A stretch of DNA of 64,000 bases from Alphaproteobacteria bacterium (GTDB lineage Bacteria; Pseudomonadota; Alphaproteobacteria; MPNO01; UBA830): contig JAJEBT010000199.1 in NCBI GenBank assembly GCA_022822405.1, positions 1 through 64,000 of the forward strand, in the 5' to 3' direction. Positions 7,082 to 51,743 of this stretch are shown piece by piece (positions within the stretch are counted from its first letter, which is position 1; every line of letters begins with the position of its first letter). The notes beneath the pieces were generated by a model, which made no database searches, had not been told where the DNA came from, and saw only the letters and a program-made list of their open reading frames with translations. The position numbers were made by a program, and so were the translations under genes.

Positions 7082-7963
7082 ATGGTCATGAAGCCGCGCG
7101 ACCGGATCGACTATTCGGCGATGGCCGACAGGGAACCACTCGCGCTGCCCGGCGGCAAGCGGATCGCGGTCTGGGTCATCGTCAACATCGAGAACTGGAA
7201 CATCGAGAAGCCGATGCCGCGCACGGTTCTCCCGCCGCCCGGCAACCAGGTTCACATTCCGGACATCCCCAACTGGTCCTGGCAGGAATACGGCATGCGG
7301 GTTGGATTCTGGCGCCTTCGGGAAGCCCTCGCATCGCGTGGCATTCCGGCAACGCTGTCAGTCAACGGCTCTGTCTGCAGCCAGTACCCGCGGCTTGCGC
7401 AGGGCGCCCTCGAGGCAGGCTGGGAATTCCTCGGACATGCGTACCACCAGCAGCCGACCCATCTCATAGAAGACCAGCAAAAGGACATCCAGCAAACCAT
7501 CGACGCGATCAGGGACTTCACCGGCAGCGCGCCTCGCGGCTGGATGGGGCCCGGCCTGACAGAGACTTTCGAGACGCCGGACTATCTCACCGAAGCGGGC
7601 ATCGAATATGTCGCCGACTTCCCGATGGACGACCAGCCCTTCGAAATACAGACGGAGAACGGGCCTCTGGTGTCCATACCCTACACCGTCGAGTTGAACG
7701 ACATCCCGATAATGCTGGTCCAGCATCATCGGGCAGACGAATTCGTGCACCGATGCATGGACAGTTTCGAGCGGCTGCACCGCGAAGGGGCCGACAACGC
7801 CCGCATAATGGCGATCGCGGTCCACCCCTACATCTCGGGAACGCCGTTCCGCATCAAGTATTTCGAGGAGGTGCTCGACCGCATCTCCGAAACCGAAGGT
7901 GTCGCGATGTGGACGGGAAGCCAGATACTCGACTGGTACAGGTCGGTGCGCCCCGAGGCATGA
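7082..7963 (+). CDS. Polysaccharide deacetylase-fold protein, PuuE (allantoinase)-like
   Basis: A 293-residue NodB-fold hydrolase. The layout (MKPRDRIDYS, IENWNIEKP, SWQEYGMRVGFWRL, FLGHAYHQQ, a WMGPG turn, SIPYTVELNDI, AIAVHPYISG) matches the PuuE branch. That branch includes a cofactor-independent allantoinase, and other members deacetylate polysaccharides or amides. It has no signal peptide, so it should act in the cytoplasm, which favours a small-molecule substrate over cell wall. The start at 7082 has GGAG ten bases upstream. The gene stands 130 bases before a molybdenum hydroxylase subunit, a pairing compatible with heterocycle degradation. The exact substrate is not determined. Confidence 0.8.
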   Translation: MVMKPRDRIDYSAMADREPLALPGGKRIAVWVIVNIENWNIEKPMPRTVLPPPGNQVHIPDIPNWSWQEYGMRVGFWRLREALASRGIPATLSVNGSVCSQYPRLAQGALEAGWEFLGHAYHQQPTHLIEDQQKDIQQTIDAIRDFTGSAPRGWMGPGLTETFETPDYLTEAGIEYVADFPMDDQPFEIQTENGPLVSIPYTVELNDIPIMLVQHHRADEFVHRCMDSFERLHREGADNARIMAIAVHPYISGTPFRIKYFEEVLDRISETEGVAMWTGSQILDWYRSVRPEA

Positions 7964-20962: not shown

Positions 20963-21883
20963 TTACCCCGACGGGCGGAACGGCCGCGCCAGAGATGCGG
21001 GGAAGTGGAGCATGAGGATCTGCCGATTGCGGGAGATGATCACGAGAACCACGATGGTGGCCAGATAGGGAAGCGCGGACAGGAGTTCCGAGGGAATCGC
21101 AAGACCAAGCGCCTGGCCCTGCAACTGCAAGATGGTCACGCCGCCGAACAGCCATGCCCCCGCCATCACCCGGAACGGCCGCCAGGTCGCGAACACGACG
21201 AGTGCGAGCGCGATCCATCCCCGGCCCGCAGTCATGTTTTCGACCCAGAGCGGGGTATAAGCGATGGACAGATAGGCGCCGCCCAGCCCGGCCATCATGC
21301 CGCCGAACAGCACCGCAAGATAGCGGATCGCGATCACCGGATAGCCTATCGCGTGCGACGACTGCGGCGATTCCCCGATGGTGCGGATCACGAGGCCGGC
21401 CTTGGTGCGATACAGCACCCAGGTGATCACGCCGAACAGGACAAAGGACAGGTAGACGAGCGCGTCGTACTGGAAGAACAGTGGACCGATCACGGGTATA
21501 TCGGCAAGGAAGGGGACGTGAAACGCCGACAGGGCTTCGACCGGGGTGCTGCCGAAGCCGCGCCCGATCGAGGCCGAGACGCCGGAGCCGAAGATCGTCA
21601 GCGCCAGACCCGCCGCGTACTGGTTGGTCATGAAGGTCAGGGCAAGGATGCCGAAGATCAGGGACGCTGCCGCACCCGCCACCGCAGCCGCCGCTATCGC
21701 CACCGGCATGGGGAATCCCGCAAACGACACCCATACCGCCACCGCCGCGCCGATGAGCATCATGCCCTCGATGCCGAGATTGACGACTCCCGATTTTTCG
21801 ACGACGAGCTCGCCGAGAGCCGCGAATATCAGCGGCGTCGCGGCAATCACCGTTCCCGTGAATATGGCGGTGAACAGGTCCAT
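20963..21883 (-). CDS. BMP-type ABC transporter permease, second subunit
   Basis: 306-residue hydrophobic permease of the nucleoside/CUT2-like branch. It has VVNLGIEGMMLIGA, TMNQ-like FMTNQYAAGLAL, GESPQSSHAIGYPV and GLGGAYLSI. It pairs with the permease encoded immediately upstream and with the double ATPase to import the ligand of the BMP binding protein. The stop codon lies in a small hairpin (20956-20970). Its last 250 bases are duplicated at 19781-20030 across the fitAB pair. Confidence 0.92.
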   Translation of the reverse strand: MDLFTAIFTGTVIAATPLIFAALGELVVEKSGVVNLGIEGMMLIGAAVAVWVSFAGFPMPVAIAAAAVAGAAASLIFGILALTFMTNQYAAGLALTIFGSGVSASIGRGFGSTPVEALSAFHVPFLADIPVIGPLFFQYDALVYLSFVLFGVITWVLYRTKAGLVIRTIGESPQSSHAIGYPVIAIRYLAVLFGGMMAGLGGAYLSIAYTPLWVENMTAGRGWIALALVVFATWRPFRVMAGAWLFGGVTILQLQGQALGLAIPSELLSALPYLATIVVLVIISRNRQILMLHFPASLARPFRPSG

Positions 21884-21888
21884 GGGCT

Positions 21889-22965
21889 TTAGCGTCTCGC
21901 AAGCTTGATGCGATAGAAGATGAGAAAGTCGGCAGCCAGCAGAAAGAACAGCAGCATGCCCTGGAATATCCGCGTCAGTGACGACGGCATGCCCAGACTC
22001 AACTGGACCGCCTCGCCGCCAAGATAGAGGAGCGCCAGCAGCAGCCCGCCGAACACGATTCCGAATGCGTTCAGGCGGCCGATGAACGCGACGATGATGG
22101 CGGCGAACCCGTATCCCGGAGAAATCTGCGGCGACAGCTGTCCGAGCGGACCCGCCGCCTCGGCCATGCCGGCAATGCCGGCGGCCGCGCCCCCGATGAG
22201 AAGGCCGAACCAGATCGAAGTAGAGTCCGAGAAGCCCGCATAGCGCGCTGCCGCCGGCGCCTCGCCGCCGACCGCCATTCGGTAGCCGAGAAAACTGCGG
22301 CCGCTGAAGATCCACATCGCGAATACCGCGACCACGGTGATGAAGATCGAACCATTGACGCGATAGGCGCCATGCAGCGGATCGAACATGGCTGCAGGCG
22401 GCAGGAGTGCCGTCTGCGGGTAGTTGAATCCGGCCGGATCCCGCCACGGCCCGTGAACCAGATAGGAAAGCAACAGCGTCGCCACGTAGGTGAGCATCAG
22501 GGTGACGAGGATCTCGTTGGTGTTGTAGCGGTCGCGCAGAAATGCCGGTATCGCCGCCCACAGCATGCCGCCGGCCATGCCAGCGAGCAGCATCAGGGGA
22601 AGGACCGCTGCGCTTTCGCGGTCGGGGAAGAAGAGGCCCACTCCGGTCGCCGTGATGGCGCCGATTATGAGCTGCCCCTCGGCCCCGATATTCCAGACAT
22701 TGGCGCGAAACCCGATCGCGAGTCCGAGCGCGATCAGGATCAGCGGCGACGCCTTCAGAAGCAGTTCCGAGACCCCGTTGAGAGAACTCACCGGTTCGAC
22801 GAAGAACGCCTCGAACGCGGCCACCGGGTTATGACCAAGCGCGGCAAACAGGATAGAACCGCACAGAATCGTGAGCGCAGTCGCCATCACGGGCGCGGCG
22901 ATCCGCATCGTCGCCGAAGGTTCGGTGCGCCGCTCGATGACCGGCCAGAGCGGAAGAGCTCCCAT
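21889..22965 (-). CDS. BMP-type ABC transporter permease, first subunit
   Basis: 358-residue inner-membrane permease with the family segments GFRANVWNIGAEGQLIIGA, TNEILVTLMLTYVA and GYGFAAIIVAFIGRLN. It is the larger permease of guanosine/BmpA-type transporters and lies between the ATPase gene and the second permease, with gaps of five to eight bases, so the operon is tightly packed. Confidence 0.92.
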   Translation of the reverse strand: MGALPLWPVIERRTEPSATMRIAAPVMATALTILCGSILFAALGHNPVAAFEAFFVEPVSSLNGVSELLLKASPLILIALGLAIGFRANVWNIGAEGQLIIGAITATGVGLFFPDRESAAVLPLMLLAGMAGGMLWAAIPAFLRDRYNTNEILVTLMLTYVATLLLSYLVHGPWRDPAGFNYPQTALLPPAAMFDPLHGAYRVNGSIFITVVAVFAMWIFSGRSFLGYRMAVGGEAPAAARYAGFSDSTSIWFGLLIGGAAAGIAGMAEAAGPLGQLSPQISPGYGFAAIIVAFIGRLNAFGIVFGGLLLALLYLGGEAVQLSLGMPSSLTRIFQGMLLFFLLAADFLIFYRIKLARR

Positions 22966-22973
22966 CGAACGCC

Positions 22974-24476
22974 TCAGGCCCGGGCGCGAGTCATGAGAAG
23001 CCCGACTTCCTCGTAAGTCGTCTGCCCCCGCTCAAGCGAGCGCGACAGCGAGCCTTCGCACATGACCAGGATCCGATCGCAAATCTCGAACAACTCGTCG
23101 AGCTCCTCCGAGATCACGAGGATTGCCGCCCCCGTCCGGCTGATATCGATGAGGGTCTGGCGTATGTATGCCGCCGCGCCGACATCGACGCCCCAGGTCG
23201 GCTGCGAGACCAGAAGGATGCCGGGTCGCAACTCGATCTCGCGCCCGACAATGTACTTCTGGAGATTGCCGCCCGACAGACTCTGGGCAAGGCTGTCGAC
23301 GCCGTTGGTCCGGACATCGAACCTCTCGATGACGCTGCCGGCATATCCCCGCGCGCGACGGCGGTCCACCAGGCCGCGCCGTATCATGCCGGTCCGGTGA
23401 CCGGTAAGGATCGCGTTCTCGCTGAGCTGGTGGGGCGGAACGGCGCCGCGGCCAAGCCGTTCCTCGGGTACGAACGCGAATCCGAGCCGCCGCCGCCGCC
23501 CTGCACCGAGATGGGCAACGGGCTTTCCGAACATCCTGATCGCGCCGGGCGTGGCATTCAGCGTCCGCTCCCCGCTCAGCAGGCCGGCAAGTTCGGCCTG
23601 GCCGTTGCCCGATATGCCGGCAATCCCGACGATCTCGCCGCCGAAGACCTCGAAAGAGACATCGGCGATGCGGGTGCCGAACCGGTCTGCGGGCTCCGCC
23701 GACAGGTTCTGCACCTCGAGGACCGGCTCCGCGCTGCGTTCCGGCGGCACGGCGTGAGTCTCGGGAAGCTCGGTCCCGACCATCAGCCGCGCGATGTCCT
23801 CCGTCGAGGCAGCCCGGGGATCGACCGTGCCGGCAACCTTGCCGTTCCTCAGCACCGTCGCCGTGTCGCAGAGTTCCTGCACTTCATGCAGCTTGTGGCT
23901 GATGTAGAGGATGCTGCATCCCTCGCCGGCGAGTTGGCGAAGCGTCTCGAACAGCCGCGGCACGGCCTGCGGCGTGAGGACCGATGTGGGCTCGTCGAGA
24001 ATCAGCAGACGCGGGTTCTGAAGCAGGCAGCGCACGATCTCGACGCGCTGGCGTTCTCCGACCGAAAGCGTGTGGACCAGCCGCGCGGGATCGATCGGCA
24101 GACCATAGCGTTCGGAGACTTCCGAGATCTTCCCCGAGAGCGCGGCGAGATCGAACCGCCCCCCGACCGAGAGCGCGATGTTTTCGACGACGGTGACCGA
24201 TTCGAACAGCGCGAAATGCTGGTAGACCATCTCGATGCCGAGCGCGCGGGACACTGCGGGGTTGTGCGCGCGGATCGGTTCGCCGTCGCACAGGATTTCC
24301 CCCTCGTCGGCGAGCACGGCACCGTAGATGATCTTCATCAGGGTGCTCTTGCCGGCACCGTTCTCGCCGAGCACAGCATGGATCTCGCCCGGCATGACGG
24401 ACGCGGAGATCCCGTCATTGGCGACGACACCGGGATAGCGCTTGCGGATGCCGCGCAGTTCCAGCCGTGGGGTCAT
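22974..24476 (-). CDS. BMP-type ABC transporter ATP-binding protein (double ABC domain)
   Basis: Cytoplasmic ATPase with two ABC domains, about 500 residues. The first has an intact Walker A (GENGAGKST, residues 37-45), a signature-like LSVGERQ and Walker B LLILDEPT. The second has a degenerate Walker A (GISGNGQAEL), LSGGNLQ and LLVSQPTWGVDVG, normal for this family. The start is set at ATG 24476 because the earlier in-frame ATG at 24506 is buried in a perfect 13-base stem-loop. MTPRLELRGI is a typical N-terminus. It energises the two permeases encoded downstream. Confidence 0.9.
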   Translation of the reverse strand: MTPRLELRGIRKRYPGVVANDGISASVMPGEIHAVLGENGAGKSTLMKIIYGAVLADEGEILCDGEPIRAHNPAVSRALGIEMVYQHFALFESVTVVENIALSVGGRFDLAALSGKISEVSERYGLPIDPARLVHTLSVGERQRVEIVRCLLQNPRLLILDEPTSVLTPQAVPRLFETLRQLAGEGCSILYISHKLHEVQELCDTATVLRNGKVAGTVDPRAASTEDIARLMVGTELPETHAVPPERSAEPVLEVQNLSAEPADRFGTRIADVSFEVFGGEIVGIAGISGNGQAELAGLLSGERTLNATPGAIRMFGKPVAHLGAGRRRRLGFAFVPEERLGRGAVPPHQLSENAILTGHRTGMIRRGLVDRRRARGYAGSVIERFDVRTNGVDSLAQSLSGGNLQKYIVGREIELRPGILLVSQPTWGVDVGAAAYIRQTLIDISRTGAAILVISEELDELFEICDRILVMCEGSLSRSLERGQTTYEEVGLLMTRARA

Positions 24477-24503
24477 GTCTGCGGACCGGCGCCCGGACCC
24501 GGT

Positions 24504-24532
24504 CATGGCGCCCCGCCAAGCGGGGCGCCATG
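24504..24532 (-). other. Perfect 13-bp stem-loop between the BMP binding-protein gene and its ATPase gene
   Basis: Bases 24504-24516 pair completely with 24520-24532 around a three-base loop, beginning 14 bases after the binding-protein stop. No T-run follows. It probably stabilises the binding-protein mRNA or lowers downstream expression. It also hides an alternative start codon of the ATPase gene. Confidence 0.75.
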
Positions 24533-24546
24533 GACACGTCGGGTGT

Positions 24547-25638
24547 CTAGCCGAGCTTGCCGATCATGCCGGCAACGAACCAGTCGAACTTGCGAATGTC
24601 GGGATCGGACAGGACGCCGCCCTTGGCGACCCGCACCTTACCCGCCTGGTCCTTGATCTCGCCGGCATAGGGATGAAGCTTGCCGGTCCTGATCGACTTC
24701 TCGGTTGCCGCCAGCTTGGCGCGGACGTCGGCGGGGATGGCGTTGTTGTAGGCTGACATCTTGACGACGCCCTCGGCGAGGCCCTGCCATCTGACCGTGG
24801 ACTTCCACGTTCCGGCCGCAACCGCCTTGGCGGCGGCAACATAGACGCTGCTCCAGTCGAGCATGAAGGCCGTGAGATGGGTCTTGGGCGCGAACTTCGC
24901 CATGTCGCTGGCATAGCCGACCGACCAGGCCCCCTTCTCGCCGGCCACCTGGACGCCGGTGGCGGTATCCGTCATCGAGCAGATGACGTCGCACCCCTGC
25001 GAAATCAGCGTGTTGGTCGCCTCCTTCTCCTTGCCGGGATCGAACCAAGAATTCAGGAAGATCGCGCTGCAGGTGATCTTGGGGTTGACGCTCTGGGCGC
25101 CGAGAAGCAGGGCGTTCGCCGGACCGACGATATCGGGAATCGGGAAACCGCCGACGAAGCCGATCTTCGCCGCCTTGGACACGTGTCCCGCGGCCACGCC
25201 GGCAACATAGGTGCCTTCGTAGTACTTGGCCTCGAACGTACCGAGATTCGGAAGATGAACGATTCCCGAGCAGTGCTCGAAGGCAACCTTCGGAAAGCGC
25301 GGCGCGACCTTCTGCATCGGCGTGCCGTGCGAGAAGCTGGTCCCGAAGATGAGCTGATGTCCGCTGCTCGCCAGCTGCCGGAAGACGCGCTCGGCGTCCT
25401 GGGGTTTGAAGATGTTGTCGATGACGGTGATCTTGACCTTGTCGCCAAGCGCCTCCCGGATCGCGTCGACGCCGAGGCTGTGCTGCTTGGTCCAGCCGAT
25501 TTCGGACACCGGCGAAACATAGACGACGCCGACCTTCAGCGGGTCGGCGGCAAACGCTTGGGACGCAAGACCGGTGCCGATCAGCGCGGAACCGGCGGCG
25601 CCGGCCATGAATTCACGGCGTGTCGTTGACAGTTTCAT
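24547..25638 (-). CDS. BMP-family ABC transporter substrate-binding protein with Tat signal
   Basis: 363-residue periplasmic binding protein of the basic-membrane-protein (BMP/Med) family, many of whose members bind purine nucleosides. A twin-arginine signal is visible (TRREFMAG, Arg7-Arg8, hydrophobic stretch to about residue 30, ASQAFA cleavage region). Export is therefore probably through Tat. The mature part has VYVSPVSEIGWT, FGTSFSH, KIGFVGGFPIPD and the ligand-proximal GAWSVGYASDM. First gene of the four-gene operon, divergent from the NdmC-like genes. The ligand is not determined. Confidence 0.92.
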   Translation of the reverse strand: MKLSTTRREFMAGAAGSALIGTGLASQAFAADPLKVGVVYVSPVSEIGWTKQHSLGVDAIREALGDKVKITVIDNIFKPQDAERVFRQLASSGHQLIFGTSFSHGTPMQKVAPRFPKVAFEHCSGIVHLPNLGTFEAKYYEGTYVAGVAAGHVSKAAKIGFVGGFPIPDIVGPANALLLGAQSVNPKITCSAIFLNSWFDPGKEKEATNTLISQGCDVICSMTDTATGVQVAGEKGAWSVGYASDMAKFAPKTHLTAFMLDWSSVYVAAAKAVAAGTWKSTVRWQGLAEGVVKMSAYNNAIPADVRAKLAATEKSIRTGKLHPYAGEIKDQAGKVRVAKGGVLSDPDIRKFDWFVAGMIGKLG

Positions 25639-25957: not shown

Positions 25958-26809
25958 ATGGATCTCACATCGAACGCCGGACTGTTCGCTGACTGGCACG
26001 TGGTCGCCGATATCGAGAATCTCCGCCGATCCGGCAGCCACGAGACACGGCTGTTCGGAACGCATCTTGCGATATCGCGGCCCGGCGACGGGCCCGCTGT
26101 CGTTCTTGCCGGCGGGAAAAAGGTCGTGGCGCGGGAGAAGTACGGCTTCGTCTGGGCGAGCCTCGGGGAACCGTTTGCCGACATCATTGATATCCCCGAG
26201 GCGGAAGAGGACGACCGCCATATCGTGACCGGCGGCTCGATCGCCGTTCACGCATCGGGATTGCGGGTGGTGGAAAACTTTCTCGACATGGGGCATTTTC
26301 CGTTCGTGCATGCCGGCTGGCTCGGTACCGAGCCGCACACAGAGGTCCCGGCCTACGAGGTTGCCTTCACCGGAGACGACCAGATTCTGGCGACCGACTG
26401 CAGGTTCTTCCAGCCGGTCGCCTCGCCGACCGCAGAGAGCGGCTTCATGGTCGACTACGTCTACCGCGTGTTCCGGCCCTACACCGTCGCCCTCTACAAG
26501 AGCAACCCGACGCAGCCGGACCGCAAAGACTTCATCGCCCTGTTTGTCCAGCCGGTCGACGAGGAACGCTGCGTCGCCCATCCGTTCCTGTGCTATCTCA
26601 TGGACGGGATCGACCGCGCCACGGTGCGCTGGTTCATGCAGTTGATCTTCGCCCAGGACAAGCCGATCCTCGAGAACCAGCTTCCGAAGAAACTGCCGCT
26701 CGACCCGCGCACCGAGACCCCGGTCCGGGCCGATGCCGTCTCGGTGTCCTACCGGCGCTGGCTGCGGGACCGGCGCGTCAGCTACGGCGCCGTTCCGCAG
26801 GCGGTCTGA
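25958..26809 (+). CDS. ndmC: Rieske-less non-heme iron oxygenase subunit, NdmC-like (first copy)
   Basis: 283-residue catalytic protein of the Rieske oxygenase family that lacks the Rieske cluster. After LFADWHVVADIE and TRLFGTHLAIS the stretch that should carry CxH and CxxH is only about 15 residues, and the chain goes straight to KYGFVWASLG. The mononuclear iron site is intact: N107-FL-D110-MG-H113-FPFV-H118, with Asp234 in QDKPILENQ as third ligand. NdmC of Pseudomonas putida CBB5 has the same composition and takes electrons from a Rieske domain on NdmD. The next genes are a paralogue, an NdmD-like reductase and a GST-like protein. N-demethylation is inferred. The substrate is unknown. ATG 25958 gives the NdmC length. 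Confidence 0.85.
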   Translation: MDLTSNAGLFADWHVVADIENLRRSGSHETRLFGTHLAISRPGDGPAVVLAGGKKVVAREKYGFVWASLGEPFADIIDIPEAEEDDRHIVTGGSIAVHASGLRVVENFLDMGHFPFVHAGWLGTEPHTEVPAYEVAFTGDDQILATDCRFFQPVASPTAESGFMVDYVYRVFRPYTVALYKSNPTQPDRKDFIALFVQPVDEERCVAHPFLCYLMDGIDRATVRWFMQLIFAQDKPILENQLPKKLPLDPRTETPVRADAVSVSYRRWLRDRRVSYGAVPQAV

Positions 26810-26813
26810 AGCC

Positions 26814-27725
26814 ATGGCCGCAGAACAAGCGTGGCGAACGGCCAATGGAGGCGCCATAGCCGAACCCGCATGCACGGATCCGGTCGTGCTCGACCTGTGG
26901 CATGCAATCGGCGCAGTGAACGAGACGTTCGAAGTGCAGCACACGGAACTTCTGGGCCAGCCGCTGGCATACCGGATCGACGCAGGCGGCACTCCCCAGG
27001 TTCGGCGGCATGGCGGCCCGGGAGACGGCGGCGCCCTGCCGGCACGCATCGCCTACGGCTACGTCTGGTGCAGTCTCGGCACGCCCGCGAACGAGCTGTT
27101 TCCGATTCCGGAATACGAGGAAGAGGATCGCCGCAACCTCAACGCCGCGAGCATCGGGGTGCACGTGTCGGCACCGCGCGCGATCGAGAACTTTCTCGAC
27201 CTCGGTCATTTCCCGTTCGTGCATACCGACATCCTCGGCGTCGAACCGCACACCGAAGTCAGGGAATACCGGGTGGAGGTGAGCGAGGACAACCGCGAGA
27301 TCGTCGCCACGAACTGCATGTTCTATCAGCCGAAGGCGGCCGCAACGTCGGAGGCCGGAGCGGATGTTGAATACGTGTACCGGGTGCCCCATCCCTTCTG
27401 TTCGGTGCTCTACAAGTCGAGCCCTCTCGATCCGGAGCGCATGGACGTCATCGCTCTCTTCTGCCAGCCCCTCGACGAGCAGCGCACCCGTGCCCACATG
27501 CTTCTCAGCATCCTCGACGAGGGCAGCGAGGACCGTGATATCCGGGCCTTCCAGCAGATGATTTTCGGCCAGGACAAGCCGATTCTGGAAAACCAGTTTC
27601 CGAAGAAGCTGCCGCTCGACCCGCGCGCAGAGACCCCGATCCGGGCCGACAAGTCAGCCATCTTCTACCGCCGCTGGCTGAGCGATCTCGGCCTGACCTA
27701 CGGCGTGGTCCCGGCCGCGTCATGA
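26814..27725 (+). CDS. ndmC: Rieske-less non-heme iron oxygenase subunit, NdmC-like (second copy)
   Basis: 303-residue paralogue of the preceding protein, four bases downstream. It too has no Rieske ligands: residues 30-90 run from LWHAIGAVNETFE through TELLGQPLAYRI to YGYVWCSLG without CxH or CxxH. The iron site is complete: N126-FL-D129-LG-H132-FPFV-H137 and Asp254 in QDKPILENQ. The two copies share long segments such as KPILENQxPKKLPLDPR but differ around the likely substrate pocket, so they may form a mixed oligomer or act on different substrates. The stop overlaps the reductase start as ATGA. Confidence 0.85.
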   Translation: MAAEQAWRTANGGAIAEPACTDPVVLDLWHAIGAVNETFEVQHTELLGQPLAYRIDAGGTPQVRRHGGPGDGGALPARIAYGYVWCSLGTPANELFPIPEYEEEDRRNLNAASIGVHVSAPRAIENFLDLGHFPFVHTDILGVEPHTEVREYRVEVSEDNREIVATNCMFYQPKAAATSEAGADVEYVYRVPHPFCSVLYKSSPLDPERMDVIALFCQPLDEQRTRAHMLLSILDEGSEDRDIRAFQQMIFGQDKPILENQFPKKLPLDPRAETPIRADKSAIFYRRWLSDLGLTYGVVPAAS

Positions 27726-29533
27726 GCACCGCGAGCGCAACCCCGGGCCCCGGAACTACCCGGGCCGACACGGCCGGCGCGGATCCCGCGCGGGCGTGGC
27801 ATCCGGTGGCGGCCGCGCATGACCTTCCTTACCGGCATGTCTTTCACGGCCAGTTGCTGGGACGAGAGCTTGCGATCTGGCGCGCAGACGACGGCTACGT
27901 GAACGCCTGGGAGAACCGCTGCCTGCATCGCGGCGTGCGCCTTTCCATCGGCGTCAATGACGGCCGCGAACTCAAGTGCCAGTATCACGGCTGGCGCTAC
28001 GCCAACCGGACGGCCGGCTGCACCTACATCCCCGCCCATCCGGCCGACGCGCCGGCGCGGACGATCTGCAACCGCACCTTCCCGGCGGTGGAGCGCCACG
28101 GGCTGGTATGGTCGGGCGAAGCGCCAGAAGGCGATGTCCCCGACCATTGCGGCTTCCCGGCGCCGCTGGCGCTGCGCGGCATCGCCGTCAACGCGCCGCC
28201 GGGGCTGGTCGCGGAGCGTCTCGCCGGATACCGGTTCCTGCCGTGCGGGCGGCTCGACGCCGACGACGCCGACATCGATGCCACCATCGTTTCTCCCTGG
28301 GCCGTTCGGCTGAATGCCTCCGTCGACGGCGATGCGACCGGCCTTCTGCTCCTGGTGCAGCCGGTGGATTCGCATCGCTCCGTGATTCGCGGGGTGGTCG
28401 ACCGGGGCAGCGGCGCCGCGCCGGACAGCGCAATTCTGCGCCATCACAACGGGCGGCTGGGGGCATTGCGCGACGCCATCGAGAGGGAGGCTGCGGAACT
28501 GGAGATGCCGGAGCCTCTGGAACCGGCCATCGAACGGTTGCCGCCCGACCTCGCGAGAATCCCGGAGCCGCGAAAAGGCGGCCGGCAGGCGGCGCTCCGC
28601 GTCGAGGTGGCGCGGAAATGGCCCGCCGCCGAGGGCATATGCGGCTTCCGTCTGCTTCCGGTCTCCGGCACCCTGCCGACGTTCCAGCCGGGGGCCCATG
28701 TCGACGTCCACATGCCGAACGGCCTGATCCGGCAGTATTCCCTGGTCAATGGTCCCGGCGAAACCGACGGGTTCGTCCTCGGCGTGAAGCTCGAGCCCGA
28801 ATCGACAGGCGGCTCGCTGTGCATGCACGAGGCGGTGCGCGAGGGCGACGTGCTCGCGGTCTCCGAACCGCGGAACAATTTCACGCTGCGACGCGACGCG
28901 ACGCGCTCGCTCCTGATTGCCGGCGGCATCGGGATCACGCCGCTCCTGTCGATGGCGCGGACGCTCGATCACGGCGGCCTCGGGTACGAACTTCACTATT
29001 TCGCGCAGAACGAGGAACAGGTCGCGTTCCGCGACATCCTCGATGGCCTCGGCGACCGGGTTCGCCTCCATCTCGGCCTCGGGGCAGCCGAGACAGGCGC
29101 GGCCCTCGACCAGCTGCTTGCCGGCCGCGAGGATCGCATGCATGTCTATCTCTGCGGTCCCGGGCCCATGCTGGAGGCGGCGCGGAGCACCGCCGAGCAG
29201 CGGGGCTGGCCCGACGAGGCGGTGCATTTCGAGTATTTCGCGAATCCCAACGAGATCGACGACAGTTCGTCCTTCGAGATCGACCTCGCGCGCTCGTGCC
29301 TAACGCTCGATGTGCCGGCCGGCAGGACGATCCTCGAGATCCTGCGCGAGAACGGCGTCGATCTTCCCTCGTCCTGTGAACAGGGAGCGTGCGGAACGTG
29401 CGCTGTCCCGGTCCTCGAGGGGCAACCGGACCACCAGGATGTCTATCTGAGCGATGCGGAAAAGGCCGCCGGCGACCGTATCATGACCTGCGTCTCGCGT
29501 GCCGGATCCGGCCGGCTCGTACTCGATATCTGA
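27722..29533 (+). CDS. ndmD: Reductase with extra N-terminal Rieske domain, NdmD-like
   Basis: 603-residue electron-transfer protein. Residues 25-135 are a Rieske ferredoxin domain (C67-L-H69 and C86-QY-H89). Residues about 145-285 look like a degenerate oxygenase-type domain without iron ligands. Residues 290-505 are an FNR module (FAD motif RQYSL, NAD motif GGIGITPLLSM). Residues 515-603 are a plant-type [2Fe-2S] ferredoxin (C552, C557, C560, C590). This order and length match NdmD, which feeds NdmA, NdmB and the Rieske-less NdmC. It overlaps the upstream gene by four bases and should supply the Rieske centre that both upstream subunits lack. Confidence 0.93.
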   Translation: MSTASATPGPGTTRADTAGADPARAWHPVAAAHDLPYRHVFHGQLLGRELAIWRADDGYVNAWENRCLHRGVRLSIGVNDGRELKCQYHGWRYANRTAGCTYIPAHPADAPARTICNRTFPAVERHGLVWSGEAPEGDVPDHCGFPAPLALRGIAVNAPPGLVAERLAGYRFLPCGRLDADDADIDATIVSPWAVRLNASVDGDATGLLLLVQPVDSHRSVIRGVVDRGSGAAPDSAILRHHNGRLGALRDAIEREAAELEMPEPLEPAIERLPPDLARIPEPRKGGRQAALRVEVARKWPAAEGICGFRLLPVSGTLPTFQPGAHVDVHMPNGLIRQYSLVNGPGETDGFVLGVKLEPESTGGSLCMHEAVREGDVLAVSEPRNNFTLRRDATRSLLIAGGIGITPLLSMARTLDHGGLGYELHYFAQNEEQVAFRDILDGLGDRVRLHLGLGAAETGAALDQLLAGREDRMHVYLCGPGPMLEAARSTAEQRGWPDEAVHFEYFANPNEIDDSSSFEIDLARSCLTLDVPAGRTILEILRENGVDLPSSCEQGACGTCAVPVLEGQPDHQDVYLSDAEKAAGDRIMTCVSRAGSGRLVLDI

Positions 29534-29540
29534 AGCGGCG

Positions 29541-30188
29541 ATGGCTCTCACGCTCTACGATTACGAACTGTCGGGGAACTGCTACAAGCTGCGTCTCCTG
29601 ATGAACATTCTCGGCGTGGACTATGCTCCGGTCCCGATCGACTTCTATCCGGGCCGGGAACACAAGTCCGCGGAATTCCTCGAGAAGAATCCGCTCGGGC
29701 AACTGCCCGTAATCGATGACGACGGTTTCGTGCTGCGCGACGCTCAGGCCATCCTCGTCTATCTCGCCTCGAAGTTCGATCCGTCGGGGCAGTGGTATCC
29801 GGTCGGGGATGTCCGGCTGCTCGGCGAAGTCAGCCAGTGGCTGGCATTCGCCGACGGCATCACCGCGACATCTTCGGCGGCGCGGCTGCATGACGGCCTC
29901 TTCTACGACTTCGACGTCGAAGCCTGCCGCTCGGAAGCGCATCGGCTGTTCCGGATCCTCGACGAGCAGCTGTGGTTTTCGGAAGCCGAGAATTCGGGCT
30001 GGATCTGCAGCGCCCAGCATCCGACGATCGCAGACATCGCCTGTTTCCCTTATGTGATCCTCTCGGAGGAGGGCGGCATCTTCCGACAGGACTATCCGGC
30101 CATCCGGCGGTGGACGGACCGGGTGAAGCGCATTCCGGGCTTTGTCGTGATGCCGGGTGTCTTTCCTGTCGGCCCCGACCGGGCCTGA
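29541..30188 (+). CDS. ndmE: Glutathione S-transferase-like protein, NdmE-like
   Basis: 215-residue GST fold: thioredoxin-like N-terminal half (LTLYDYELSGNCYKLRLLMN, NPLGQLPVIDDDG, AQAILVYLA) and an all-helical C-terminal half (HPTIADIACFPYV). It starts seven bases after the NdmD-like gene. In P. putida CBB5 the GST-like NdmE is needed to assemble the NdmC-NdmD complex, and the same gene order here suggests the same structural role. A catalytic GST role cannot be excluded. Confidence 0.85.
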   Translation: MALTLYDYELSGNCYKLRLLMNILGVDYAPVPIDFYPGREHKSAEFLEKNPLGQLPVIDDDGFVLRDAQAILVYLASKFDPSGQWYPVGDVRLLGEVSQWLAFADGITATSSAARLHDGLFYDFDVEACRSEAHRLFRILDEQLWFSEAENSGWICSAQHPTIADIACFPYVILSEEGGIFRQDYPAIRRWTDRVKRIPGFVVMPGVFPVGPDRA

Positions 30189-36570: not shown

Positions 36571-37893
36571 ATGGTTTCTGCGCCAGAACCCGGCCCCGCC
36601 GCCCTTGTTCGGCCCGGCCGGGTACACCGCCGCATCTACAGCGATCCCGCGATATTCGAACGGGAAATGGACTGCGTGTTCGGCCAGGCATGGATATATG
36701 TTGGCCATGAAAGCGAAATCCGGGAACCCGGCGATTTCGTGAGGACGCGGATCGGCCGCAAGCCGATGGTGATGACCCGCCACGAGGACGGCCGGATCTG
36801 CGTCATCCACAACCAGTGTGCGCACCGCGGCGCCATGGTCGTCGCCGAGGATCGCGGCAACGCGGCCGAGTTCGTCTGCTGCTACCATGGCTGGACCTAT
36901 GGCACCGACGGCAGGCTGGCGCGGGTGCCGCTCCGGCACGGCTATCCGCAGGACTTCGATCCCGAAGATCCGCGGACGGCCATGGTCGGCGCCCCCCGGG
37001 TTGCCAGCTATCGCGGCTTCGTGTTCGCCTCCCTCGCACCCGACGGCCCGCCGCTCGAGGAGTTCCTCGGACACATGACGACCTCGTTCGACGACATGGT
37101 CGACCGTGCGCCGGACGGGGAAATCGAGGTTGCCGGCGGCATCTTCAAGCACGCCTATGACGGCAACTGGAAGCTCTATCTGGAGAACCTGTGCGACGCT
37201 GCGCACCCGCTTTTTGTCCACCAGTCCTCGATAGCCGCCGCGCACGACCAGGACGATGATGTCCATACCGACGGTTTCGGCGAGATTGCCGTGCGCCAGA
37301 TGCGCCAGAACGGGGCGCCCTACAAATTCTGGCAGGAGGAGGTCGGCATCTGGACCTACCCGAACGGGCATTCCTTCCTCGGCGACTATCATGACGACGA
37401 GAAACTCGTCGCCGCCCAGCGGAATCCGGTCTTCGCCGACTATATTGCAGCGCTGGAGGCGAAGAAGGGCGCGGACGAGGCGCGGCGCATTCTCGAAGTG
37501 ACGCGCTGGAATTCCAATGTCTATCCCAACCTGTCCTTCATGAGCCAGTTCCGGCAACTCCGCGTCATCCATCCGGTTGCAGTGAACCGGACCGAGGTCC
37601 ACACCTATTCCTTCCGCCTCAAGGGGGCGCCGGAAAAGATGTTCGAGGATACGATCGCGTTCGCAAACGTCACCAACGGCACTGGCTCGCTGGTCCTGAC
37701 CGACGATCTGGAGACGTATGGCCGCATCGGCGCCGGAGTCACGAGCGAAGGTGCGGAATGGATACAGGTCGGGCGCGGATACACGACCGACCTGCCCGAC
37801 GACCATGGCGGGGTCCAGGGCAGCGACTCCACGAGCGAAGTCTACATCCGGAACATGTATGACGCCTGGCTCGGCTACATGGCCGCGGAATGA
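36571..37893 (+). CDS. Ring-hydroxylating dioxygenase alpha subunit (Rieske)
   Basis: 440-residue catalytic subunit. It has a complete Rieske domain (C83-A-H85 and C103-CY-H106) and a mononuclear iron site (N205, D208, H211, H216 in ENLCDAAHPLFVH). It should dihydroxylate or oxidise an aromatic substrate in a multimer with the beta subunit encoded 31 bases downstream. No ferredoxin or reductase gene is adjacent. The only reductase in the window is the NdmD-like one at 27722. Substrate unknown, with benzoate- or anthranilate-like acids among the possibilities. Confidence 0.92.
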   Translation: MVSAPEPGPAALVRPGRVHRRIYSDPAIFEREMDCVFGQAWIYVGHESEIREPGDFVRTRIGRKPMVMTRHEDGRICVIHNQCAHRGAMVVAEDRGNAAEFVCCYHGWTYGTDGRLARVPLRHGYPQDFDPEDPRTAMVGAPRVASYRGFVFASLAPDGPPLEEFLGHMTTSFDDMVDRAPDGEIEVAGGIFKHAYDGNWKLYLENLCDAAHPLFVHQSSIAAAHDQDDDVHTDGFGEIAVRQMRQNGAPYKFWQEEVGIWTYPNGHSFLGDYHDDEKLVAAQRNPVFADYIAALEAKKGADEARRILEVTRWNSNVYPNLSFMSQFRQLRVIHPVAVNRTEVHTYSFRLKGAPEKMFEDTIAFANVTNGTGSLVLTDDLETYGRIGAGVTSEGAEWIQVGRGYTTDLPDDHGGVQGSDSTSEVYIRNMYDAWLGYMAAE

Positions 37894-37924
37894 CCGGGCC
37901 TGACCAGCCCGGCGCGGGTACGCC

Positions 37925-38404
37925 GTGAACGCCCCCGCCCCCCCGGAAATCGAGGCCTTCCTGGTCGCCGAGGCACGCCTGCTCGACGAGCGCAGGTGGG
38001 ACGAATGGCTGGCGCTGTTCGATGACGAGGCCTGGTACTGGGTCCCGATCGAGGAAGGCCAGCCGGATCCGCGGCGGACCGTGTCGCTGATTTACGACGA
38101 CCGCCAGCTTCTCGAGACCCGGATACGCCGGCTTGCCGGCGCGCAACCGCACGCCCAGACACCGCAATCGAGGACCAGCCGCATCGTCGCGAACGCGACC
38201 ATCGAGAAGGAGGAGGCCGGAACGGTCACCATACGGTCCAAGTTCCAGATGATCGAATTCCGGCGCGACGCGCAGCGCCTGTTCGGCGGGACCCAGTGGC
38301 ACGGCCTGAAGCACGGCGAAAACGCCGGTTTCGTCATCGCATGGAAGAAAGTGGAGCTCGTCAATTGCGATGGCGTCCTTGACGGAATCAACATCCCATT
38401 TTAG
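37925..38404 (+). CDS. Ring-hydroxylating dioxygenase beta subunit
   Basis: 159-residue structural subunit (SnoaL-like fold): EAFLVAEARLLDERRWDEW, WYWVPIEEG, and KVELVNCDGVLDGINIPF at the end, all typical of small subunits. It uses a GTG start at 37925. It follows the alpha gene directly and completes an alpha/beta oxygenase. Confidence 0.92.
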   Translation: MNAPAPPEIEAFLVAEARLLDERRWDEWLALFDDEAWYWVPIEEGQPDPRRTVSLIYDDRQLLETRIRRLAGAQPHAQTPQSRTSRIVANATIEKEEAGTVTIRSKFQMIEFRRDAQRLFGGTQWHGLKHGENAGFVIAWKKVELVNCDGVLDGINIPF

Positions 38405-38455: not shown

Positions 38456-38815
38456 ATGAAGAAATCCGCCATCGCCACAGCCCTGCTGACCGGTGTTGCC
38501 GTAGCAGCCATGAGCAGCCAGTTGGCGGCGAAGCCCAACGACAAGCTGACGCTCGCGGCGAACGCGCCCGCAGAAGTCAAGGCCGCGTTCGACAAGTGGG
38601 TCGGAGGCGCCGAGCTCGGCGACGGACGCAAGGACAAGTGCTACGGGATCGCGCTTGCCGGCCAGAACGACTGCAAGGCCGGCGCTGGAACCAGCTGCGA
38701 AGGCTCGTCGACGAAGGACTTCCAGGGCAATGCCTGGACCCATGCGCCCGCGGGAAGCTGCAAGTTCATCGTGACCCCGATGGGTCCCGCCTCGCTTTCC
38801 GAGATCAAGCGCTGA
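38456..38815 (+). CDS. bufA: Bufferin precursor, BufA1 (DUF2282) family
   Basis: 119-residue precursor with a Sec signal peptide ([20 protein letters not shown]) and a core with four cysteines, C62, C73, C81 and C102, in the BufA1 arrangement [13 protein letters not shown]...SC...SC. In characterised bufferins, cysteines are converted by the MNIO enzyme into thiooxazole-type groups that bind copper in the periplasm. A clear AAGGAG precedes the ATG. The partner genes bufB, bufC and doxX follow in order. Confidence 0.93.
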
Positions 38816-38864
38816 CGCAACGGCGGAGCATCCGCGCCATCTCCACCGACCCCGGCCGGACGCC

Positions 38865-39719
38865 GTGGACACGGCCAGTCCGATCGGCGCCGGGGTCGGT
38901 CTGAAGCCGGCCCATATCGAAAGCGCCCTCGGCCATCGCGAATCCGGGCTCTGGTTCGAGGTCCATACGGAAAACTACATGATCGCGGGCGGGCCGCGGC
39001 TGGAACAGCTGCGGCAGATCCGTGAGAGCTTTCCGCTGAGCCTCCATGGCGTCGGCGCGTCGCTCGGCGGAACGGATCCACTTGACCGCCGGCACCTTGC
39101 AGCGGCGAGGCGACTGGTCGACGAGTTCGAACCCGTCCTCGTCTCCGAGCACGCCGTGTGGTCGGCGGCCGGCGGCATCTGGTTCGCCGATCTCCTGCCG
39201 GTCCCGAGGACCGGCGACGCGCTGCGCCATCTGGCGTCCCGCGTGCAGCAATACCAGGAGGCTGTCGGCCGGCAGATCCTGCTCGAGAATCCGACCAACT
39301 ATCTTCCGTTCGTCAGCGAGATCGACGAACCTGAATTCCTGAACGAAGTCGCCGCCCGCAGCGGATGCGGGCTGCTCCTCGACGTCAACAACGTCTTTCT
39401 CAGCGCCTGCAATTGCGGCATCGACCCCGAACGGTACATCACGGAGCTGGCTGGCGACCGCATCGGCGAAATTCACATCGCCGGCTTCGAGCCCGACGAG
39501 AATCTGGGCCGGGAACTGCTGATCGACACCCATTCCGCGCCGGTAAGCAGCGCGGTGTGGGAGCTCCTGGATTTCGCGCTCGCGCATCTCGGCCCGAGAC
39601 CCGTGCTTCTCGAACGCGACAGCAAGCTGCCTCCCTGGAACACGCTGATGAACGAGCGACGACGCGCCGACGACGCGCTCCGCCGCCTGCGGCCAGCACC
39701 GGAAGCGCTCCTTGCTTGA
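38865..39719 (+). CDS. bufB: MNIO (DUF692) enzyme BufB
   Basis: 284-residue TIM-barrel multinuclear non-heme iron oxidase. Ligand-bearing segments are visible: GLWFEVHTENYM, LSLHGVG, LVSEHAVWS, ILLENPTNYL, LLLDVNNV, EIHIAGFE, DTHS and LLERDSKLP. It would modify cysteines of the BufA precursor. The start is a GTG at 38865. No nearby ATG gives the family N-terminus. It overlaps the bufC start by eight bases. Confidence 0.93.
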   Translation: MDTASPIGAGVGLKPAHIESALGHRESGLWFEVHTENYMIAGGPRLEQLRQIRESFPLSLHGVGASLGGTDPLDRRHLAAARRLVDEFEPVLVSEHAVWSAAGGIWFADLLPVPRTGDALRHLASRVQQYQEAVGRQILLENPTNYLPFVSEIDEPEFLNEVAARSGCGLLLDVNNVFLSACNCGIDPERYITELAGDRIGEIHIAGFEPDENLGRELLIDTHSAPVSSAVWELLDFALAHLGPRPVLLERDSKLPPWNTLMNERRRADDALRRLRPAPEALLA

Positions 39720-40473
39720 CACCTACACCCGGGCCTTCGCCGCCTACATGCGGAGCGGAACCGTGGGCGCGCTGTCGGACTATTGCGGCCCCGGCGCCGA
39801 TCCTGTCCGGCTCCGGGTCTACCGCAACGGCTTTCTCAAGGCGTGCACGGACGCGCTCAGAGCGAGCTATCCGGCGGTCGAGCACATTGTCGGAGAGGAC
39901 AGCTTTGCGGCGCTGGTGCGCCCCTTCATCGAGGCCGACCCGCCGCGCACGGCCAGTCTTGTCGGATATGGCAGCGATTTCCCGGCCTTCCTCGCCCAGT
40001 CCGCGGAGGTCCACGGGCTGCCCTACCTTGCTTCGTTCGCCAGCCTCGACTGGGCCTGGCTGGAGGTCTATTTCGCAGAGGACCCGCCCGTTTCGCCGGA
40101 CGTTCCGGAGGGCCTTGGCGCCGGCGACGACCCGGCCCGCATACTCGAGCGGCGCGGCGGCCTGGCGCCATGGGCGCGGCTGGTCGCGCTCGACTACCGC
40201 GCCCTCGACATGTGGATGAGGATCCGGGATGACGGCCTCGATCGCCGGACCGAAATCGCGGCGGAGCCCGAGCATGTCCTCGTCTGGCGAATCGGCATGG
40301 AGATCCGCCACCGCAGCCTGCCACCGGCCGAGCGCGCGTTTCTTGCCGCCATTGCGGCGGGCCGACCCTGTGGCGACGCCGCTGCGTCGGCACTTGAGAC
40401 CGATGCGGAATTCGATCTCGCCGAAACCTTCGCGACGCTGCTTCATCACCGGATCGTGGCGTTCCGGGACTGA
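39712..40473 (+). CDS. bufC: BufC (DUF2063 / HvfC family) partner protein
   Basis: 253-residue protein with the N-terminal DUF2063 helical domain (FAAYMRSG, RLRVYRNGFLKACTDALRASYPAV) and a winged-helix-like C-terminal part. It partners the MNIO enzyme and recognises the precursor leader. A TTG at 39712 inside the end of bufB gives the natural start (TTG CTT GAC ACC). Translation is probably coupled to bufB. Confidence 0.9.
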   Translation: MLDTYTRAFAAYMRSGTVGALSDYCGPGADPVRLRVYRNGFLKACTDALRASYPAVEHIVGEDSFAALVRPFIEADPPRTASLVGYGSDFPAFLAQSAEVHGLPYLASFASLDWAWLEVYFAEDPPVSPDVPEGLGAGDDPARILERRGGLAPWARLVALDYRALDMWMRIRDDGLDRRTEIAAEPEHVLVWRIGMEIRHRSLPPAERAFLAAIAAGRPCGDAAASALETDAEFDLAETFATLLHHRIVAFRD

Positions 40474-40635
40474 CGGTCCCCGGTGCAGCCAAGCGCGGCT
40501 CCGGCGGCGTGCGACACCGAAGCCTGCGGCCGGAAGCCGATCTCTGGGCCCGAGCCGGCCGGTTGCGCGGCAGCGCCGGTTGTTCTAGCGTCAGGATCGC
40601 AGCGGCGGCGCAACATGGACAGGAGCAGCGGAGCC

Positions 40636-41160
40636 ATGATCTCGACATATCGCGCGTTGTTCGTTCGCGGTTTCCAGCAGCTCGAACCGCTCTCGCTGCT
40701 GTGCCTCAGGCTTGCCGTAGCGAAGGTGTTCTGGGACTCCGGGGTGACGAAATGGAACGGTTTTTTCGATTTCAACACCGCCAAGTTCGACCTGTTTCTC
40801 TACGAGTTCTTTTGTCCGAAACCGCCGCGGGCAGGAGCGCTGCAACTCTGCGATCCGAACACCCTCGAGTACACCCAGGGCTCCTTCACGGTCACCGCCG
40901 TCAAGGGGCTGGCGGTGCTGGCAGGAGTGGTCGAAATCGTCCTTCCCGTACTGCTCGTGGTCGGGCTCCTGAGCCGCCTGTCCGCACTCGGACTCTTCGG
41001 CATGACCATCTTCATCCAGCTCGCCGTGTTTCCCAGCTGGGAGCACTGGTGGAACCCCGCCGTCTGGTGGGCGGTCATCCTGCTGCTTCTGATAACGCGC
41101 GGCCCCGGCTCGTGGTCCCTCGACCACCTGTTGCGCCTGGAAGGTCCGTCTCGGAGGTGA
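40636..41160 (+). CDS. DoxX-family membrane protein
   Basis: 174 residues, four predicted membrane helices (LCLRLAVAKVFWDSG, AVLAGVVEIVLPVLLVVGLL, ALGLFGMTIFIQLAVF, VWWAVILLLLITRGPG). DoxX proteins commonly end bufferin and related MNIO operons, where their role is unclear. ATG 40636 follows GGAG. An in-frame ATG seven codons earlier is an alternative. Convergent with the NCS2 permease gene. Confidence 0.87.
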   Translation: MISTYRALFVRGFQQLEPLSLLCLRLAVAKVFWDSGVTKWNGFFDFNTAKFDLFLYEFFCPKPPRAGALQLCDPNTLEYTQGSFTVTAVKGLAVLAGVVEIVLPVLLVVGLLSRLSALGLFGMTIFIQLAVFPSWEHWWNPAVWWAVILLLLITRGPGSWSLDHLLRLEGPSRR

Positions 41161-50441: not shown

Positions 50442-51743
50442 ATGTTGAGCAGGGAACAGAACGAGTTGGCGACCCGCATCGGTCCGGGCACCGGTTGCGG
50501 CAGGCTGATGCGGCGGTACTGGCAGCCTGCGGCCCTGGCCGAGGAGCTGCCGGACGACCATCCGGTACGGCCGGTGCGGCTGCTCGGCGAGGATCTCGTC
50601 CTCTACCGCAACGAGGACGGCGGCCATGGCCTGGTCGGCCGCAGCTGTCCCCACCGCGGCGCCGATCTGTCATACGGCCGCCTCGAGGACGGCGGGCTGC
50701 GCTGCACCTTTCACGGCTGGCTGTTCGACGCCGGCGGCAGGTGCCTCGAGCAGCCGGCTGAACCGGAGGGCAGCCGCTTCCACACCAGAATCCGGCATAC
50801 GGCCTATCCATGCACCGAACGCAACGGCATCGTCTTCGCCTACATGGGCGAGGGCGATCCGCCGCCACTGCCGGATTTCGACTGCTTCGTCGCACCGGAC
50901 GAATTCACGTTCGCCTTCAAGGGCTTCCTCGAATGCAACTGGCTGCAGGCGCTGGAAGTCGGAATCGATCCCGCACACGCTTCGTTCCTTCACCGTTTCT
51001 TCGAGGACGGGGACCCTGATGAAGGCTACGGCCAGCAATTCCGCGACGAGACCGCGGAAATTCCGGTCACCCGGCTCATGCGTGAATTCCCCCGTCCCGA
51101 GATCCGCGTCGACGATACTGACTACGGCCTGCGGCTGACGACGCTCCGCCATATCGGCGCCGGGCGGATGCATGTCCGCGTGACCAACCAGATGTTCCCC
51201 AACGCCATCGTCATACCCATGTCCGGCGACATCAACATCACCCAGTGGCACGTCCCGATAGACGACACGACGTGCTGGTGGTACGCGATATTCTCGGCGT
51301 TTGACGGTCGGGTGGACAAGCGCCGCATGCGCGAACAGCGGCTCGAACTCTACACGCTCCCCGACTACCGGCCGCGCCTCAATCGCGCCAACGGCTACGG
51401 GTTCGACCCCGGCGAACAACGGGACGCGACCTATACCGGCATGGGGCACGACATCAACGTCCATGACCAGTGGGCCGTGGAGTCCCCGGGCCCGATCGCC
51501 GACCGTTCCGCGGAGCATCTCGGCGCCTCGGACAAGGGCATCATCGCCTACCGGCGCAAGCTTCTCGGCGCCATCGGCGGCCTTGACGAGGGCACCCGGC
51601 CGCCGATGACGGACGGCTCCGCGAGCGCCTTGCGCGGGCCCGCGGCCATCGACACGGTTGCGCCGGCAACGGGCTGGGAGGAGGCGTGGCAGACGGCAGA
51701 GGCGGCGCGGCGCGACCGCTCTCCCTGGGCGCCGTCGCTGTGA
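50442..51743 (+). CDS. Rieske oxygenase, phthalate 4,5-dioxygenase-type single oxygenase component
   Basis: 433 residues. Rieske ligands C69, H71, C88 and H91 (CPHRGA and CTFHGW), and iron ligands in EVGIDPAHASFLH (H179, H184). The insertion pattern and C-terminal YTGMGHDINVHDQWAVESPG are those of the phthalate-dioxygenase group, whose members dihydroxylate rings or remove O- or N-alkyl groups. It needs an external reductase, not encoded nearby. It ends in a GTGA overlap with a glutamine-synthetase-like gene. Confidence 0.9.
   Translation: MLSREQNELATRIGPGTGCGRLMRRYWQPAALAEELPDDHPVRPVRLLGEDLVLYRNEDGGHGLVGRSCPHRGADLSYGRLEDGGLRCTFHGWLFDAGGRCLEQPAEPEGSRFHTRIRHTAYPCTERNGIVFAYMGEGDPPPLPDFDCFVAPDEFTFAFKGFLECNWLQALEVGIDPAHASFLHRFFEDGDPDEGYGQQFRDETAEIPVTRLMREFPRPEIRVDDTDYGLRLTTLRHIGAGRMHVRVTNQMFPNAIVIPMSGDINITQWHVPIDDTTCWWYAIFSAFDGRVDKRRMREQRLELYTLPDYRPRLNRANGYGFDPGEQRDATYTGMGHDINVHDQWAVESPGPIADRSAEHLGASDKGIIAYRRKLLGAIGGLDEGTRPPMTDGSASALRGPAAIDTVAPATGWEEAWQTAEAARRDRSPWAPSL

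Follow-up and report, generated by a model that had tools for sequence, protein, structure and literature searches.

A split Rieske oxygenase operon with two cluster-less catalytic subunits and one Rieske-bearing reductase

The window analysed here is a 64,000-nucleotide stretch of an Alphaproteobacteria bacterium (assembly GCA_022822405.1, contig JAJEBT010000199.1, positions 1 to 64,000). Four genes running head to tail at 25958-30188 form one tight operon that, by its domains, appears to encode a split Rieske oxygenase like NdmCDE and with two catalytic subunits. NdmC-NdmD-NdmE of Pseudomonas putida CBB5 is a 7-methylxanthine N7-demethylase. As to complex, substrate and reaction, we infer with a probability of about 0.6 an NdmCDE-like oxygenase in which two alternative catalytic subunits would share one electron-delivery unit and act on purine-type substrates.

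All four genes lie on the + strand. The first two encode the cluster-less catalytic subunits CatA (25958..26809, 283 amino acids) and CatB (26814..27725, 303 amino acids), with Pfam VanA_C scores of 71 and 81 bits, and CatB is 48% identical to CatA. They are followed by the hub, a 603-residue Rieske-FNR/NAD-plant-type ferredoxin reductase (27722..29533; Pfam Rieske, NAD-binding and Fer2), and by a 215-residue GST-like protein (29541..30188; Pfam GST_N/GST_C), the counterpart of NdmE. The genes are spaced by a 4-base gap, a 4-base overlap and a 7-base gap. An earlier reading made from the letters alone, here the sequence-only reading, had given the same gene content, coordinates and gaps, and the Pfam profile search and the open reading frame positions agree with it.

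Both catalytic subunits keep a complete mononuclear iron site and lack the Rieske cluster ligands. The site consists of D110/H113/H118/D234 in CatA and D129/H132/H137/D254 in CatB. In an alignment of 42 rows, CatA and CatB among them, the four CatB residues never vary. If these proteins work like other Rieske oxygenases, the iron would be bound by H113/H118/D234 and H132/H137/D254, with D110 and D129 each serving as the bridging Asp of the electron route. The Pfam search found no Rieske domain in either protein, and neither carries a Rieske cluster and a mononuclear iron in one chain as the complete alpha subunits of the SxtT/NdmA type do.

The same pattern holds among the relatives. The motif DxxHx4H is carried by all 96 cluster-less rows from 91 stretches, the window's two counted, and a CxH..CxxH match occurs in only one of the 96 reading frames (L062), in a run-on stretch past the catalytic domain. 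The four residues named for each subunit by the sequence-only reading, and the absence of CxH/CxxH ligands, are thus borne out by Pfam and the alignments. Its term Rieske-less is correct as to the ligands but too strong for the fold, since the N-terminal ~50 residues can still be aligned with the beginning of a Rieske domain, and we therefore write cluster-less.

In the hub, a Rieske domain (residues 26-108, ligands C67, H69, C86 and H89) is fused to an FNR module with the flavin/NAD motifs RQYS and GGIGITP and to a plant-type ferredoxin (527-594, cysteines from C552). Motifs and Pfam agree on this fusion, which had been proposed before, and the GST-like third subunit stands in the same operon. 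These parts are those described for NdmCDE, namely a cluster-less catalytic subunit, a Rieske domain on an FNR-ferredoxin reductase and a GST-like third subunit (PMC4408171, PMC10380055). The complex contains three of each subunit (PMC10380055), whereas the window's two catalytic genes depart from one catalytic type per complex.

Paraburkholderia caffeinilytica served as the NdmCDE proxy because its locus has NdmA/NdmB matches, formaldehyde genes and a ferredoxin module matching NdmD with 135 bits. The proposed NdmCDE-like division of parts stands by domain content, and the window's catalytic subunits share a split clade with this NdmCDE-like locus. The window's own ferredoxin module reaches 69 bits and its reductase falls in another clade. 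Also, the window has an adjacent BMP ABC transporter, whereas the gene table of a caffeine degrader lists a purine permease (PMC10380055).

Homologous ndmCDE clusters with no function assigned occur, besides the closest ones, mainly in Sinorhizobium and Mesorhizobium (PMC4408171), so the split family in rhizobia has already been noticed in print. For the arrangement with two catalytic subunits, no description was found in the open literature among the matches listed, with Summers 2013 outside the search. Related background is found in PMC8055839, PMC10579966, PMC11698098 and PMC4463537.

The two-subunit operon is not a one-off. A scan of named genomes gave 458 stretches encoding CatB relatives, and the best 80 were kept, with flanks scanned up to 6 kb per side and fewer at contig ends. 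The order CatA-CatB-reductase-GST is found in seven loci, which are the window, L030 (its contig starts within CatA), L034 of Primorskyibacter, L110 of Sinorhizobium meliloti, L145, L146 and L147. The same four-gene order is present in S. meliloti 1021 (L155, the same species as L110) in a pSymA operon. The survey of other genomes that the sequence-only reading had called for hence finds the arrangement conserved, S. meliloti 1021 included.

The pSymA operon (L110, L155) shares with the window the four genes, their order and the divergent BMP ABC transporter. It differs in an extra GntR regulator, and its CatA and CatB are ~65% and ~64% identical to the window's. In a plasmid collection, a 60-80% identical CatA copy was present in 46 of the 78 records matched at E <= 1e-60.

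The Rieske partner varies among the best 80 of the 458 stretches, being a fused Rieske-reductase in 12, a separate Rieske frame in 43 and neither by rule in 25, where L035 is counted under neither as its Rieske match sits in an over-long frame. A GST gene is present in 40 of the 80 loci and a BMP protein in 64. Rhizobium clusters that consist of a stand-alone Rieske protein, a catalytic subunit and a GST, for example in Rhizobium leguminosarum and Rhizobium tumorigenes, belong to the same split family and have the same transporter type, but their Rieske hub is unfused to a reductase and a guanine deaminase or amidohydrolase is adjacent.

An alternative design with two subunits occurs in R. tumorigenes. 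Its cluster combines two catalytic subunits with a single Rieske protein and a single GST, both encoded between the two catalytic genes; guaD neighbours one of these genes and a molybdenum hydroxylase the other. Herminiimonas L044, G349 and G754 likewise have two catalytic subunits, the genes being apart in G349 and G754.

Other layouts were seen in passing. Variovorax VAI-C (L115 6349-8842) encodes the Rieske protein separately and joins a catalytic domain to an FNR-ferredoxin reductase, a third division of parts. In L053, L054, L062, L081 and L088 of the Rhizobium group, a cluster-less catalytic gene is directly followed by a molybdenum hydroxylase, and no Rieske protein lies within the stretch examined. 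The reductase of Paenalcaligenes (L033 6931-8720) and the GST of Sinorhizobium K101 (L109 10636-11340) are each split over two frames, possibly by decay or sequencing error.

CatA and CatB belong to separate lineages. The catalytic-subunit tree has 64 rows, after near-duplicates of >85% identity and the fragments L013 and L014 were dropped, and NdmC is represented in it by proxies. The split catalytic subunits cluster together there, separated from 9 complete oxygenases (90/97). The CatA clade (6 rows, 100/100) adjoins the NdmC-like proteins of P. caffeinilytica, P. putida KF715 and Klebsiella (96/85), and the CatB clade has 16 rows (99/96), 12 of them from loci without CatA. In the approximately unbiased (AU) test, neither CatA with CatB but without the NdmC-like rows (p 0.177) nor CatB with the NdmC-like rows but without CatA (p 0.112) was rejected, and CatA plus the NdmC-like rows is accordingly not claimed as a proven clade. 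A local tandem duplication of the window's CatA and CatB was rejected (p-AU 3e-5).

In a quick tree of the hubs (42 rows, near-duplicates dropped), those of the two-subunit operons group with the CatB-only hubs (19 rows; Shimodaira-Hasegawa-like approximate likelihood ratio test support 98), apart from NdmD-like reductases. The simplest story is that CatA joined a pre-existing CatB-reductase-GST operon. The phrase two diverged NdmC subunits is only partly borne out, as it may suit CatA, within the limits of the AU test, and not CatB with its own clade. The expected kinship with NdmC is plausible for the catalytic subunits, which share a split clade with the NdmC proxies, and in the quick tree the reductase lies apart from the NdmD-like ones.

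Each subunit also occurs without the other. The plasmids of Sinorhizobium medicae (L154) and S. meliloti LMB1 (L156) carry the transporter, a regulator, CatB, the reductase and GST but no CatA gene. A stub of the CatA start remains in LMB1 (207 aligned bases, the first ~206, 85% identical) and in Sinorhizobium K101 (83% identical), so CatA was lost in both, while S. medicae L154 showed no CatA stub and only the CatB match. Ten S. medicae rows listed cover 78% of the CatA-CatB-reductase query with most of the CatA part missing. In the opposite direction, L064 and L083 have CatA-type subunits with a separate Rieske protein and GST, and no CatB within the stretch.

These one-subunit loci bear on how the two subunits work together, for which the sequence-only reading had left two options, a mixed catalytic ring or two subunits served by one reductase. 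The latter, a single electron-delivery unit for both subunits, is favoured over a ring that must be mixed, as CatB-reductase-GST is kept without CatA in S. medicae and LMB1 and the CatA type without CatB in L064 and L083. We thus consider it unlikely that CatA and CatB must assemble with each other, whether in a mixed ring or as two stacked trimers, one of each subunit, to form one enzyme or a substrate channel. Such an assembly would fit CatA and CatB being neighbours in constant order in seven loci, and NdmA plus NdmB are given as alpha3alpha'3 (PMC12445004, PMC10380055). The one-subunit loci argue against its obligatory form and not against an optional stack.

A still less probable alternative, which we hold very unlikely, is that one subunit is catalytically idle and only structural or regulatory. 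Two copies per one reductase would agree with it, and a helper role is plausible since NdmC is reported insoluble alone (PMC10380055). However, the iron ligands and the bridging Asp are kept in both subunits, and each lineage has residues of its own, for example R173 for the CatA clade versus H193 for the CatB clade. The two are also under similar purifying selection, with ratios of nonsynonymous to synonymous substitution rates (dN/dS) of 0.135 for CatA and 0.132 for CatB between S. meliloti L110 and L145, where the reductase has 0.180 and GST 0.091.

Over five locus pairs, dN/dS is 0.079-0.204 for all four genes, with synonymous sites near saturation in three pairs and frames taken stop to stop so that a few upstream codons are included. 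All four genes are under purifying selection by this codon measure. The dN/dS values do not support a reading in which the CatA of two-subunit operons is decaying.

Under the preferred reading, of two alternative catalytic subunits on one electron-delivery unit, the reductase would take electrons from NADH and hand them on, via its flavin and plant-type ferredoxin modules, to the Rieske domain at its own N terminus. Held by the GST-like subunit, this domain would dock to one catalytic unit, CatA or CatB, and reduce the mononuclear iron there, allowing O2 activation and substrate hydroxylation. Hydroxylation at an N-methyl group would lead to demethylation and formaldehyde. CatA and CatB may each be an enzyme in its own right, the two differing in the position attacked or in which of two related substrates they use, and the divergent BMP-type transporter may import these substrates.

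Methylated or other modified purines are the most likely substrates, by analogy with the transporter type and the genes of the sister clades. A gene scoring >150 bits to the guanine-deaminase-like guaD product of R. tumorigenes is present in 26 of the 80 loci, and one scoring >150 bits to the amidohydrolase of R. leguminosarum, whose best NCBIfam model is 8-oxoguanine deaminase under the cut-off, in 35. Where positions were inspected, the loci bearing them are sister clades. The P. putida locus has HpxO and a nucleobase symporter as neighbours, and at the P. caffeinilytica locus two complete oxygenases match NdmA (649 bits) and NdmB (689 bits) in PDB and are followed by the formaldehyde genes. 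Pocket comparison found only 7 columns that separate the CatA and CatB clades cleanly, with no substrate read from them. A Rieske enzyme acting on methylguanine was not found in the open literature among the matches listed.

Several observations weigh against the two-enzyme, purine-linked reading. The conserved adjacency of CatA and CatB in the seven loci also fits a heteromer, the absence of CatA was seen on those plasmid records only, and the NdmCDE comparison runs through the P. caffeinilytica proxy and not CBB5 NdmC itself. Among the CatA- and CatB-clade loci inspected, only L032 has a guanine-deaminase-like gene (weak, 120 bits) together with a xanthine dehydrogenase-type gene, and none was found in the window. 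Class III alcohol dehydrogenase and S-formylglutathione hydrolase are absent among the immediate neighbours scanned, unlike in P. caffeinilytica; a zinc alcohol dehydrogenase lies 19 kb from the operon.

The missing guanine-deaminase-like gene would suit an aromatic or other non-purine oxygenase whose purine link is merely borrowed from relatives. So would the other ring-hydroxylating oxygenases in the window and the large set of 47 Rieske-domain matches over the cut-off in its 5-Mb assembly (G000, 6% contamination listed). Nevertheless, we judge this improbable, given that the BMP/PnrA-type transporter adjoins the operon here and in 64 of the 80 relatives, and that NdmC-like relatives lie near NdmA/NdmB relatives, HpxO and nucleobase symporter genes.

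Purine-like genes in the window itself lie far from the operon, and their assignments are weak. The molybdenum hydroxylase at 8094 has glyceraldehyde dehydrogenase as its best NCBIfam model, and a PuuE-like protein at 7082 scores 117 bits against a cut-off of 425. A permease at 41262 passes the general purine/pyrimidine permease model (42.7 vs 40) but not the xanthine permease cut-off.

The sharing of a hub can be counted across genomes. Profiles of the catalytic subunit (A1) and the hub (A2) were searched against 398 genomes, the window's own among them, with at most 6 candidates per genome scored. A1 matched 19 genomes at E <= 1e-60, of which 4 were set aside (matches covering 57-288 of 290), and A2 matched 21 at 1e-36, of which 6 were set aside (matches covering up to 141 of 238). 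Such incomplete coverage of a profile is what complete oxygenases would be expected to give. Both profiles were then found in the identical 15 of 398 genomes, with at least 20 catalytic subunits and at least 15 hubs.

Among 23 fully scored genomes, picked for having a catalytic subunit and with G004, G125 and G218 left out, the hub is present in all 23. They contain 30 catalytic subunits versus 24 hubs, at a ratio of 1:1 in 16 genomes, 2:1 (two catalytic per hub) in six and 2:2 in one. Some hub matches include read-through, a TGA in one each of G747 and G754 and two stops in one of G333, possibly at the match ends.

Each half of the split enzyme appears to retain a trace of the other. CatA has a Rieske-start remnant at residues ~5-53, and across the catalytic subunits the N-terminal ~50 residues align with the beginning of the Rieske domain (hhalign 97.9%, E 3.8e-13, each E-value in these comparisons referring to one single comparison), while eight shuffles and one reversal all gave <=0.6%. 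The hub has a shortened catalytic-domain remnant at about residues 145-272, and in profile comparison the ~150 residues that follow its Rieske domain align with the catalytic subunits (97.1%, E 5.8e-11).

Without the stretch kept by both proteins, the hub remnant still matches the catalytic subunits (89.7%, E 1.9e-6, 55 columns). A chance match to the catalytic domain was rejected, as eight column shuffles, reversed columns and three unrelated families gave <=0.5%. Against 17 complete oxygenases, the trimmed remnant reaches just 1.2%, and a longer stretch 92.1% over 53 columns. A DxxHx4H motif after the Rieske motif was found in none of 62 hubs.

Predicted structures agree with these matches. 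The AlphaFold models of CatB and of hub residues 1-289 have predicted local distance difference test scores of 88.5 and 89.3, and in the first-ranked rows both match best the complete alpha subunits SxtT/GxtA. The template modelling score is 0.80 for CatB (root-mean-square deviation 2.8, 331 alignment columns) and 0.67 for the hub (5.5, 289 alignment columns). SxtT/GxtA, the closest solved structures to both, hold both metal centres in one chain and act on other substrates.

From the profile matches and the AlphaFold matches to complete alpha subunits, the catalytic subunit resembles an alpha subunit minus the cluster part, and the hub resembles one minus the iron site. The halves look like reciprocal leftovers, which is new in this analysis. 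We know of no statement of reciprocal remnants for NdmD, again with Summers 2013 outside the search.

More tentatively, the split oxygenases could be a modular class derived from a single ancestral alpha subunit, two copies of which degenerated in reciprocal ways, the catalytic copy minus the Rieske cluster part and the hub copy minus the iron site. The hub would then act as a plug-in electron donor that several catalytic subunits share at the same time. In the two-subunit operons its remnant might occupy an alpha-like position in the ring, which would let CatA and CatB units mix. We regard this as conceivable but doubtful.

Seen beside this operon and its relatives, NdmCDE would be a branch within a larger family with an apparent link to purines and not an oddity of caffeine degraders. 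One Rieske hub for two catalytic subunits may be a natural way to alter specificity with the electron chain unchanged, and the reciprocal remnants offer a concrete account of splitting a two-centre enzyme between two proteins. S. meliloti 1021 carries the same genes, so the operon is directly testable there.

The BMP/PnrA-type ABC transporter lies upstream on the opposite strand and diverges from the operon. It comprises a BMP/PnrA-like substrate-binding protein (24547..25638, - strand; the start may be 25608), an ATPase with two ABC stretches (22974..24506, -; the start may be 24476) and two permeases (21889..22965 and 20963..21883, both -).

Elsewhere in the window, a Rieske oxygenase alpha/beta pair is encoded at 36667-38404 and a LigXa-type Rieske oxygenase at 50442-53200, whose end is overlapped by an adjoining glutamine-synthetase-like frame. 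At 38456-41160, a DUF2282 small protein, an MbnB/TglH/ChrH-family protein, a DUF2063 protein and DoxX are encoded in series, a row that we take to be a bufferin-type operon for a ribosomally synthesized and post-translationally modified peptide (RiPP).

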